NCBI RefSeq assembly: GCF_026151205.1
Contig: NC_087082.1
Span: 12,573,365 to 12,637,364, forward strand
Length of the DNA stretch: 64,000 nt
From: Bolinopsis microptera
Lineage: Eukaryota > Ctenophora > Tentaculata > Lobata > Bolinopsidae
Reading direction: 5' to 3'
Position numbers and translations under genes: made by a program. Position 1 is the first letter of the stretch. Each line of letters opens with the position of its first letter. Below are positions 26,201-58,582 of the stretch, piece after piece. A model generated the notes under the pieces. That model did no database searches. It was not told the origin of the DNA and worked only from the letters and a program-made list of their open reading frames with translations.

Positions 26201-26647
26201 CTAGTTATGAAGACAATCCTTGAACACGGGATTCTTTGCAATATTGCCCCGACTTGACAGCACCAAGATATCCTTAGGATCGTGTGTTCTTGACAAAGCG
26301 ACGCAAAGCTGTCCATGATTAAAACATTCGGACCTAAGGTCCAGTCCAACTATAGTGATGTCTTGTCCCTGAGCACGATTTATGGTCATGCTGTAACATG
26401 GCCGAACCGGAAATTGTTTTCTACGAAATATAATGCCGTTAGAAGCGTCTGTTGGTACCAGGGTTGTTCGTGGAATCAATATTATAGTTCCATTTTTGTT
26501 GAAGGCTTCAATTGTGTTTCTATGGAGACGTGACACAATGGCCCGTGTTCCATTAACCATAATTGGATGGTTAATATTGCGGAGAACAATAATAGGCGTC
26601 CCCACCTTCAACTTCAGTTTATGTGGTGGAAGTGAACCAATATTCAC
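26201..26647 (-). pseudogene. C-terminal fragment of a Pif1/Helitron-type helicase
   Basis: A 148-codon frame holds the C-terminal part of a Pif1-family superfamily 1B helicase: PPHKLKLKVGTPIIVLRN, a GTRAIV segment, a FPVRPCYSMTINRAQGQD motif (the conserved helicase motif V/VI region) and GQLCVALSRTHDPKDILVL. The Walker A/B motifs and everything upstream are missing, so it cannot be a functional helicase. Such C-termini occur in Helitron Rep-Hel proteins and in free-standing Pif1 expansions; flanking duplicated blocks favour a mobile-element origin. The frame itself has no internal stop. Confidence 0.75.
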
Positions 26648-26657
26648 AAAAAAGTAT

Positions 26658-26782
26658 CGATACTTTTTACTGCATCAAAATATTGCAATCACAAACAAAG
26701 TTATAAGAAGTCATAGCGTGAGCGTAAATGTGAGCTAGTTTTGAAATTATGACGTAGCATACAGCATAACAACGCGCGTTGT
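26658..26782. repeat. Block X, adjacent to the Pif1 fragment
   Basis: Copy of 24561-24698, sharing TACTTTTTACYGCATCAAAA and GTAGCATACAGCATAACA. Confidence 0.65.
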
Positions 26783-29876: not shown

Positions 29877-32800
29877 ATGCCTCGACTTTACGGTGGAGTG
29901 GATGGGGGTGGAGGTAGCTCCAGTTTTTCTGTCCTCGACGAAAATGGAAAAGTTGTCGCTCAAAGTGAGGGTGAATGTACTAATCAGTGGGTGAGTTAAA
30001 AAAACATTGTTGCCTAATTTCGATATGTTTAAAATTGAAAAGGTTTAGCTATCAGACTGAGCATGATATCAGCTGTAGTCTGTACTATAATTTTGGAAAA
30101 TCATCAATTCATCAATTCTTACCTGCAGTAGTATAGCTTAGTATTAAAACCATTTCCCCTCATTTATAAGTGCTTGTGGTACTTAGTGATAAAATGATGT
30201 AATGATCGTTTCAGTGCACCCGTTTTTGAAAACTAAATATCACTGGTTGAACAGATCATGATATCTTTACTTAGCATCCCATTTATAATCAAATTATATT
30301 AAATATCCATCTTTAAGGAGCCATCGAATGATTTTATGTCATTGAACAGATTCAATTTCTAAAGTGATTTTCCTTGTAGGTAGAGATAGGTAGAGAGTAG
30401 ATAGGTACAGAACAGCTTTGAAAAGCTTTGTCGTTACCTCTATAATTTCAGCTAGTAGGGATAGATAAAGTGCTAGAAAGTGTAGAAGAAATGTGGAAAA
30501 AAGCATTTGAAAGCAAATCAATGGAACCAGTGCAACTAGAGGGGCTAGTAAGTATTAATATGGCTGTTTGCCAAATTCTTTTTTCGATATAGAACCTAAT
30601 TCCTACCATCAGGACTCATGAGGATGGGTATATAAGTTTTGTGACCGAACTCCTTTGGCCTATTTCCTTAAAATTAAATAAGCACAATTCATATTAAGTT
30701 AGCATCAATGTAAAATATCGGTATTCCGTACCTTCATAGTTTAAATTTTATTCGCAGAGATTGGGTAGTCGTTTTACCTGCATCACTCGAGTATTTTCAA
30801 TTTTGTGTAACGTGAACAAAATGGATCCACGATTGAATTTAAACTGGCCTCTTATTACAGCAGAACATCGATTTACCGCGCCTCAATTTACTGCAAGCCC
30901 CAGTTTGCTCATTGCTGTTGCAATTTCCTTTCCCCAAATGGGGGCTCAAAATCCATCAAAACCCTGATTTGGCAGCTTTCTCTTTTCCCCTGCGGAAATT
31001 TAGGTTTATACTGTATTTTTTTCCTTTGCGGGTGATTGAGCCAGCTAGAAATTGCCACGTTCTGGCTAGTTCCAGCATGTTCTGGATAACTTTCTAATTT
31101 AATTTCATTTTCATTCGTCGAATGGCTGTGGTGTCCGATGTCATAACAAAAGCTGAGTACTAGTCCAATTCGTAGCCATATTAGAGAGGTTCTTAGCGGC
31201 TTGTCGGGGCTATTCTCGCGGTGACTTATCTCATCACATCTAAATATAATAATGATTATCAAAATTGTAGAAACATTTTACATTTATTTTAGGGATTATC
31301 TCTGTCGGGGGTGGAGGCGACCCATGTGAAGGAGGAGATTATCGAGAAGATGAAAACAAGGTACTCTCATGTTACTAAGAAAACTATCCCTGTTAATGAC
31401 AGTTGTGGAGCTGTCTTCACCGCATTCAAACATGGTAATTACACGGTAATTGCACACGTGCTCTAAGAAATGAAACTGAATTTAGATTTCAAAACTTCTG
31501 ACTGAATTATTTTGTAACATCTACTAGCTGAAATACTACATCTAACACTAATCTTGACGATGGTTAGGAAAGTTTCTTATCAGGAAGTTTCTTGTCAGGT
31601 AGTTTCTTATCAGTAAATATTTTGATTTTTTAAATACCACCGACATAACCACTGACATAATTTTAAATAAATTTACTAAAAACCCAGGTGGCATAGTGAT
31701 AATAGCAGGAACAGGATCCAACTGTCAGCTTATATCATCGGATCTGGTTCAGCATGGGTGTGGGGGTTGGGGTCATCTTCTAGGTGAAAAGGGTAGCGGT
31801 AAGTTTAATCGTTTGCAGCATCGATTATGTAGTCTAACATACAACTTTTACCTGTATCAAACATCACTTTTGCTATGTATACCACGAATCATACTGCTGA
31901 AAAATGAATTGAATAGAATATTTATATTAATCAACTAGTATGTATATAGTTTTAAACTAATTACAACACTACAAATCTATTACATTTATTGAGAATTATG
32001 TAATGTAACGCGATGGAAGTATTTTAAGCGGGCATATCTTGTCCAAACCCAGGATACATGACATAAAAGATTCGTTTTAACTTGTTTGCATGAAAAGCAT
32101 TAATAGTTCTTCTTCCGAAAATGTTGGCAACTGAACCCATTTTAATTCAGCGTACTCGATAGCACACAGACTTGTAAAAGCAGTGTTTGATGACCTGGAC
32201 TGCTTTGAAGAGCCTGCCTATAACACTGATGTGGGTAGGAAACTGGTGTGGGAGTATTTTGGAGTTGATGATCAGATGAATATGTTGCAGTTTTATTACA
32301 CTAAGTTTGAGAAGGCTCACATTGCTGGTCTTACGAATAAAATATCAAAGGTAAAATGGGTTATTTTAGAATTTAAGGGTTGAACATTTTCTGGGATATT
32401 TTTGTTTTACATTATAAAAATTGTCACTTAACTGGCATATATGATATAAATTAATGAAATGTAAGCTTAACACTTAACAGTGCATGAAATAATGTTAGAA
32501 ATATAAAATATTATATATACGTAATATTTTATATTTTATATTATATATAATTTTTATATAAAATAAATATCAAACTGTTTGATCAGGTTGCAAGAGAACA
32601 AAAGGATCCGTTACTGTTATCATGTTTTGAGTTGGCAGGAGCACAATATGCCAAGATGCTTACTGGAGTCATTAAACGTTACAGGTTCGCATTTAAGAGG
32701 AAATTAATATTATATGCTGTTGTCAAGTAAAAGTTGCAGTTTTGGGGTGCATTTTATTTATGAAGATTGTATGAAATTGCCACTCACGTTTTTATCTAGA

Positions 32801-33897
32801 CGGTACGTAATTAATAATTATTGCCGTCAAATTCTGGCATAATCTAGCCCTCACTTTATAGATGATAGTTATAACAGTGTGGTGACTGACAGTTATTGAT
32901 TTATTTGGTTGGTCGAGCTACTGCAAGCTGATTTGTCAATTACTGTCACGTGTAAAAGCAATCACAACCCCCGCCCCCCCCCCACGATTAACACCCGCTA
33001 ATCTAAGGAAGGAGAAAGGCGAGGATTACAGAGGACCTGATGAGTATATAGACGTGGTGTGTATGGGAGGAGTATTCGAGTCTTGGGACCTTCTCGAACT
33101 AGGTAAATATATTATATCTGTTATTTTGTTCTAGAACTTCTAGAACTCCTGGAACTAGGAAAATATATCAATATCATATCTGTTATTTTGTTCTAGAACT
33201 TCTAGAACTTCTGGAACTAGGTAAAAATATCATATCTGTTATTTTGTTCTAGAACTTCTAGAACTCCTGGAACTAGGTAAATATATCAATATCATATCTG
33301 TTATTTTGTTCTAGAACTTCTAGAACTTCTGGAACTAGGTAAATATATCATATCTGTTATTTTGTTCTAGAACTTCTAGAACTCCTGGAACTAGGTAAAT
33401 ATATCAATATCATATCTGTTATTTTGTTCTAGAACTTCTAGAACTTCTGGAACTAGGTAAATATATCATATCTGTTATTTTGTTCTAGAACTTCTAGAAC
33501 TTTTGGGACTTCTGGGACATGGTAAATATGGTAAATATAATAATATTATATTACTCTCCTCCATAACTAATAGAACATTTTTCTGTTTAGTCACTATTTT
33601 GGGTATTTCTGTAACCCTGTAAATCCAGCCTCCTCAAATATTATTATATTAATATTAACTCATCATATTCCTCGAAATTATCACACGTTATTCTCAAAGG
33701 AAATAAAAATCAAACTTGAATAGTTCTCTCACCCAGGGTTCAGGGACCAGTTCAACCAACAATCTTACATTACAAAAGTTCGCCTGTACCGTCTTGAAGC
33801 TTGTGGATCCTTGGGAGCGGCTAGATTATGTGATCCCCGCTTAGAACTCGATTACAACAAGAATACCCGGCTATTTTGTGAGATTGTTAAAAAATAA
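29877..33897 (+). CDS. NAGK: N-acetyl-D-glucosamine kinase, complete, 8 coding exons
   Basis: Exons: 29877-29990, 30452-30547, 31293-31434, 31688-31798, 32151-32350, 32587-32684, 33008-33102, 33737-33897. Total 1017 nt, 338 aa (human 344), phases consistent, TAA at 33895. The enzyme phosphorylates salvaged GlcNAc at O6 with ATP in the cytosol, feeding UDP-GlcNAc synthesis. Seen: N-terminal phosphate loop [15 protein letters not shown]; catalytic Asp at 106 in VNDSCG (human Asp107); ATP-site [30 protein letters not shown]-terminal [10 protein letters not shown]. It belongs to the ASKHA/ROK-like BadF family. Two oddities: the intron after residue 285 carries a tandem array of potential 24-nt mini-exons, and the acceptor of exon 7 (CTAATCTAAG) has a weak pyrimidine tract. 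No TATA box was recognised. Confidence 0.95.
33110..33526 (+). repeat. Alternating 62/56-bp tandem array with in-frame mini-exons (NAGK intron 7)
   Basis: Seven units begin their exon-like part at 33135, 33197, 33253, 33315, 33371, 33433 and 33489, spaced strictly 62, 56, 62, 56, 62, 56 (a 118-bp higher-order unit). Each has TTATTTTGTTCTAG, then 24 nt, then usually AG|GTAAAT. The unit resembles the end of exon 7 (CTCGAACTAG|GTAAAT) plus intron start, so it probably arose by duplicating that exon-intron boundary. Units 2-6 have intact GT donors; unit 1 has GA; unit 7 is 33 nt with a GT donor. All lengths are multiples of three, and in the exon-7 phase they read ELLELLEL without stop. Confidence 0.95.

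Positions 33898-38399: not shown

Positions 38400-58582
<20,183 letters not shown>

Follow-up and report, generated by a model that had tools for sequence, protein, structure and literature searches.

A mirage-like minisatellite of copied exon 7/intron boundaries in the last intron of a NAGK gene

The window that we analyzed, a stretch of 64,000 nt (C11:12573365-12637364 in an assembly of 264,652,675 bases and 232 contigs), carries on its forward strand a NAGK gene whose structure was built by hand. The model spans 29877..33897 and comprises eight exons (exons 1-4 at 29877-29990, 30452-30547, 31293-31434 and 31688-31798; exons 5-8 at 32151-32350, 32587-32684, 33008-33102 and 33737-33897), which are open throughout and encode 338 amino acids when nothing from the array described below is included. 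All seven introns have GT-AG borders and lengths of 236-745 nt, and the protein matches human NAGK (2CH6/2CH5) in phmmer with an E value of 5e-64 over residues 2-331. Exon 7 stops one base past codon 285, which sets the phase for any mini-exon and places the insertion point after residue 285, as the preliminary description of this DNA had it; the last intron follows at 33103-33736 (634 nt). When the protein was searched against its own genome, all eight matches with E 0.001 or better fell inside NAGK itself. This search found no second NAGK copy and no retrocopy, which as a processed copy might have recorded the mature mRNA, and the locus with its array is present once in the assembly.

The last intron contains a tandem array (33103..33536, + strand), the first description of which proves almost correct. 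TTATTTTGTTCTAG is present seven times in this intron, and the first bases after the AG of the seven units (U1-U7) lie at 33135, 33197, 33253, 33315, 33371, 33433 and 33489, giving acceptor-to-acceptor spacings of 62, 56, 62, 56, 62 and 56 bp, the alternation originally described. The acceptor AG is present in 7/7 units and a donor GT in six of them (U7 and all 24-nt units except U1). The segments from AG to donor measure 24 nt in six units and 33 nt in U7, and all seven are open in the phase of exon 7: as had been claimed, the 24-nt segment reads ELLELLEL, and that of U7 (33489..33521, donor GTAAAT) is in frame and encodes 11 residues. Within the exonic parts of the six 24-nt units only one base varies, the C/T noted earlier as synonymous. 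Pairs of units make up three 118-bp copies on the + strand: D1 (U1+U2, 33135..33252), with mini-exon-like segments at 33135-33158 (donor GA) and 33197-33220 (donor GTAAAA); D2 (U3+U4, 33253..33370), with segments at 33253-33276 and 33315-33338; and D3 (U5+U6, 33371..33488), with segments at 33371-33394 and 33433-33456, the donors of D2 and D3 all being GTAAAT. Units 2-6 had each been credited with an acceptor and a GTAAAT donor, which holds for the acceptors and for the donors of U3-U6; U2 has GTAAAA instead, and U1 reads GAAAAT. Were the first 32 nt of the intron retained, the first acceptor's TAG would fall in frame as codon eleven and stop translation. TRF fits the array best with a period of 118 bp (3.5 copies, 98% match, score 796). 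A 27-mer from the unit has seven exact occurrences in the 264.65-Mb genome, all seven in the array, and a whole-array search of the genome, in which very common words were skipped, found the array alone. At gathering thresholds, no Rfam match was found in the window.

The unit originates from the neighboring exon edge, its source being the last 16 nt of exon 7 (33008..33102, + strand) plus the next 32 intronic nt, which match U6 and U4. The last 16 coding nucleotides of exon 7 agree with U6 at 14 positions (none of 2000 shuffles was as good), and the stretch made up of GAACTAG, the last 7 exonic nucleotides, and the first 32 nt of the intron differs from U4/U6 at one of 39 positions. When the exon 7 boundary was compared with the boundary of U7, donor region included, 0/2000 shuffles did as well, and with the exonic parts alone 18/2000 did; the right end of U7 is another copy of this edge, and has diverged further. 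These comparisons and their shuffle controls bear out the earlier suggestion that the units are copies of the end of exon 7 and the start of its intron, and the copied piece consisted of the exon 7 edge, the donor and the beginning of the intron.

The amplification is recent: D2 and D3 are identical, with two differences in 118 bases separating D1 from them. The 62/56 alternation is accordingly best described as a 118-bp two-unit repeat, a dimer that was copied lately. Because a single dimer was recently copied, neither the alternation nor the common C/T site nor the kept splice sites need selection to account for them, and, with 98-100% identity between the 118-bp copies, periodicity, splice sites and frame amount mostly to one event counted repeatedly. 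The preliminary description had held it unusual for intronic sequence that the period should be strict and that splice sites and frame should both be kept, an argument that is weakened by copies this similar and by shuffled units that often give in-frame acceptors. The two D1 differences, at 33160 and 33226, both lie in donors, and the change at 33160 destroys the GT; the pattern gives no indication that the sites are under selection. The synonymous C/T change is without statistical weight, being one variable exonic base among six 24-nt units.

The preserved frame is in part inherited, since the exonic bases that were copied are coding sequence whose phase relative to the donor was retained. 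The coincidence left over is that the acceptor lies 3n nt upstream and the frame in between is open. To gauge it, the homologous part of the unit was held fixed and its other 34 nt were shuffled, at two acceptor thresholds: an in-frame, open acceptor segment arose in 18.7% and 12.0% of mononucleotide shuffles (20,000 each) and in 61.6% and 41.0% of dinucleotide shuffles (5,000 each). We also ran TRF on a sample of 264 kb, made up of the window and twenty 10-kb stretches at fixed positions, which gave 39 rows with a period of at least 25 and at least 2.5 copies, or about 29 separate arrays as counted from their coordinates. Minisatellites are common in this sample, with about 24 arrays (period at least 25) in the 200 kb outside the window. 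An acceptor-donor pair within the unit was found in 2 of these ~24 arrays, and an AG..GT segment of 3n length in none of them; inside the window, one of five arrays, that of NAGK, has both the pair and the 3n length. An array of in-frame pseudo-exons is therefore uncommon among the sampled arrays, which counts against reading the units as decoys. By extrapolation, about one array per 8 kb would mean tens of thousands genome-wide, leaving room for one such case. Another possible boundary-spanning array in the sample, at L028 1278-1623, showed no recognisable boundary when it was read by eye together with the open frames around it.

Arrays of a similar kind have been described in amphioxus as mirages, in the globin genes BflGb6 and BflGb9 and in Adh3, TnC and PGBD5 (PMC3087553, PMC3902484), the last two having been added by PMC3902484. 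According to the passages cited, AG/GT signals occur in many but not all mirage units, the number of repeats varies between haplotypes, and inner units are homogenised whereas edge units are not (PMC3087553); their exonic parts have been suggested to seed new exons and introns (PMC3087553), and Adh3 data together with globin RT-PCR suggest that mirages leave regular splicing undisturbed (PMC3087553, PMC3902484). The NAGK array resembles the mirages, as these passages present them, in its short tandem units that cross an exon-intron boundary and lie beside the authentic one. Its units are minisatellite-like (TRF 118 bp x 3.5, 98%) and duplicate the adjoining authentic boundary (0/2000 shuffles; 1/39 differences), many but not all of them carry splice signals (AG in 7/7, GT in 6/7), and the inner copies are alike (D2=D3, with D1 differing at 2/118) while U7 and the exon 7 edge have diverged. 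Unlike the amphioxus mirages in the parts of those papers we draw on, each NAGK unit has an acceptor of its own and so encloses an in-frame pseudo-exon of 24 or 33 nt, the units are near-palindromic, the gene is NAGK, and the array is known from DNA alone. Other systems share single features in the sections cited. In a potato RdRp gene (PMC4974935), a duplication across an exon-intron boundary likewise provides splice signals for free; this case differs in having RNA-seq support for its splicing. In human segmental-duplication genes (PMC2812944), boundary minisatellite units are able to switch on cryptic splice sites and give rise to introns; these internal tandem repeats differ in having transcript evidence and in being located in recent paralogs. 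Schistosome micro-exon genes (PMC10526429) are similar in their runs of tiny exons, and differ in that exons of 3-81 bp are separated by long introns and encode secreted proteins, compared with a spacing of 32/38 nt within a kinase intron here. Full-text literature searches on the boundary-duplication theme and on NAGK splice variants returned, among the matches listed, no title or abstract on NAGK mini-exons. By analogy, the NAGK array is most likely a recent example of the mirage kind already described.

The anatomy of the array, its homology to the exon edge, the recency of its amplification and the spacing of its units are established by the sequence, and we consider it probable that they reflect a recent minisatellite of the mirage type, which duplicates the exon 7/intron boundary and is spliced out as a set of decoys. 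In this scenario, the last coding bases of exon 7, the donor and about 32 nt of intron would have been tandemly duplicated, and a two-unit block of 56+62 bp would then have been amplified and homogenised, in an order of events that we infer. Each copy would have inherited a donor, together with an open frame, because the copied bases were coding and in the same phase. The whole array would be removed with the 634-nt intron when exon 7 is joined to exon 8, and the decoys would remain silent because their neighbors are too close and because the units, if they fold in the cell as predicted, pair with each other over the acceptors.

The main competing explanation is that a single mini-exon, or rarely two that are not adjacent, is included, either as low-level noise or even as the usual form, adding 8 residues (11 for U7) to the kinase. 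The splice sites themselves would allow it. Of nine positions, seven agree with the U1 complement both in the donors of U3-U6 and in exon 7's own donor, and the unit acceptors have 9 pyrimidines in 11 positions, as many as the acceptor of exon 8; since these sites match the consensus as well as the gene's own do, sequence alone permits the use of the mini-exons, and the phase is compatible. The earlier view of the units as bounded by good splice sites stands on paper for U3-U6. Measured from exon 7, the introns that skip units would be 94, 150, 212, 268, 330 or 386 nt long, and those from a mini-exon to exon 8 would be 215-578 nt, so that joins of non-adjacent mini-exons through introns of at least 94 nt are possible. 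Exons of 24 nt are hard to recognise without enhancers, which weighs against this reading, as do the amphioxus mirages, reported in the passages cited above not to disturb splicing, and the predicted pairing of the unit acceptors discussed below. Moreover, should the high identity of the copies mean that the array is young, any usual form dependent on the array would have arisen recently.

By phmmer, one such step agrees with human NAGK at least as well as none. The direct join of exons 7 and 8 (33737..33897, + strand) aligns gap-free at the junction with human SWELLKE-GFLLALTQG, but is 6 residues short of human NAGK, the gap falling three residues past the junction. In phmmer, the forms with no, one, two and three mini-exons score 218.2, 220.7, 214.9 and 210.9 bits against human NAGK, and the U7 form, at 218.0, shows no gain; in a search of the PDB, one mini-exon scores 222.3 bits vs 219.7 for none. 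This gain is not specific to the sequence, however, as 14 of 27 shuffled 8-residue inserts and 45 of 300 random ones score as high as the real insert (150/300 of the latter reach the score of the form with no insert), and it disappears with BLOSUM62 (553 for one mini-exon vs 555 for none). When the real insert was placed at 81 other sites, the no-insert score was reached at six, the best three of which lie at most 10 residues after the junction. An insert of roughly this length is thus tolerated there. The one-step gain thus reflects length and not sequence, and it decides nothing, since shuffled and random inserts do equally well. Within these controls, zero and one mini-exon appear equal, and the alignment speaks mildly against two or more. 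For the same reasons, with a 6-residue gap nearby and 0 and 1 mini-exons equal, we dropped the gap-free exon 7-8 junction as support for a join free of mini-exons. A Pfam profile was uninformative on the junction, as its match ends before it in all four forms. We note separately that, at the start of exon 8 (33737-33780), a wide variety of inserts around 8 residues long bring the score back up. On balance, we regard inclusion of a single mini-exon as unlikely.

Each unit carries a near-palindrome, seven in all, with 19-nt arms that overlie the acceptors (33128..33500, + strand; inverted repeats I1-I21), so that any two units can pair in RNA. Hairpins between pairs of units are predicted at -28.9 to -31.3 kcal/mol, and the predicted mean probability of being unpaired is 0.08-0.18 at the seven unit acceptors, compared with a regional mean of 0.39 and 0.50 at the acceptor of exon 8; by a stricter measure that requires nine bases to be wholly unpaired, even the exon 8 acceptor is seldom free (0.001-0.006, and at most 0.0005 for the unit acceptors). 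The mini-exon acceptors are therefore predicted to be largely paired in all seven units. This masking would not be an effect of the array, since an acceptor in the context of one unit only is also predicted to be paired (0.132). Pairing hides the unit donors no more than it does the donor of exon 7 (0.30-0.39 unpaired vs 0.32). One could imagine that such pairing chooses a single mini-exon for regular inclusion, in the manner of Dscam, so that a self-masking array born as a mirage would set the length of a helix in the kinase and replace residues that human NAGK has; we think this very improbable.

The preliminary description went further and envisaged that any number of 8-residue steps might be spliced in; as a functional ladder, the array would yield a series of kinase isoforms lengthened by ELLELLEL. 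All seven segments are open in the right phase, and self-complementary units could in principle regulate their inclusion, but the geometry of the array speaks against it. Adjacent mini-exons are separated by 32 or 38 nt, and exon 7 by 32 nt from U1, compared with the 236-745 nt of the NAGK introns. As a control on intron length, we took 73 myosin-head rows among the matches listed (94 candidates, 65 scored) in the same genome, which gave 39 pairs of neighboring exons with introns estimated at 98 to 18,986 nt; 24 further neighbor pairs were set aside as their profile positions did not abut, and the control misses very short introns that lie within a single match. Spliced introns of 43, 49 and 56 nt have been reported in a human study (PMC4463651) and introns of about 25 nt in ciliates (PMC5014332), according to the passages cited, and we therefore claim no hard minimum. 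Joins between adjacent mini-exons through introns of 32/38 nt are nevertheless unlikely against a myosin minimum of 98 nt, and the idea of a ladder of any number of steps is implausible on this point. One of the two D1 changes also abolishes a donor, a single variable base in the exonic parts of the 24-nt units is too little to base a claim of selection on, the match to human NAGK worsens with two or more steps, and the array is recent and unique in the genome, all of which makes a functional ladder exceedingly improbable. The myosin pairs set aside include one with a gap of 51 bases, at C3:9154012-9154203 and C3:9154255-9154485, which cover profile positions 105-167 and 102-167 and probably represent a tandemly duplicated exon, possibly a mutually exclusive one.

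Equally hard to credit is the notion that the array acts, without any exonic role, as a folded intronic RNA which, by looping out sequence or slowing transcription, adjusts the splicing of exon 7 to exon 8: the predicted fold is strong (z -7.6 for the region against ordinary shuffles, and -4.1 for three 118-bp copies against arrays of shuffled dimers, with 0/200 as stable) and work in elegans is cited in its support in the part of PMC4039745 we draw on, but such a fold follows from a palindromic repeat unit.

Under the mirage reading that we prefer, the array offers a clean and recent case in which the copying of an exon edge fills an intron with in-frame exon candidates, and such copies are raw material for new exons and introns; by itself, it is no demonstration of new regulation of a protein. 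The mirage papers, in the passages cited (PMC3087553, PMC3902484), concern lancelet genes, and the range of the phenomenon would be widened if the host animal is not a lancelet.

Several other features of the window were recorded. On the - strand, a 499-aa open frame at 18712-20211 matches reverse transcriptase (RVT_1, DUF6451) and is presumably a fragment of a non-LTR retroelement, while an open frame at 26201-26674 contains a Pif1_2B domain and is possibly the remnant of a Helitron helicase. Also on the - strand, a single open frame of 551 aa at 61139-62794 matches the RPE65/carotenoid-oxygenase family. Further repeats include a tandem array at 42647-43642 (247-bp unit x 4, 91% match), a (GAGG)n simple repeat of ~0.9 kb at 52529-53421, whose 4-kb bin has a GC skew of 0.346, and an array at 40206-40441 with a 24-bp unit x 9.8, which has an open frame on the - strand that translates into repeated GAAISYFA/T.
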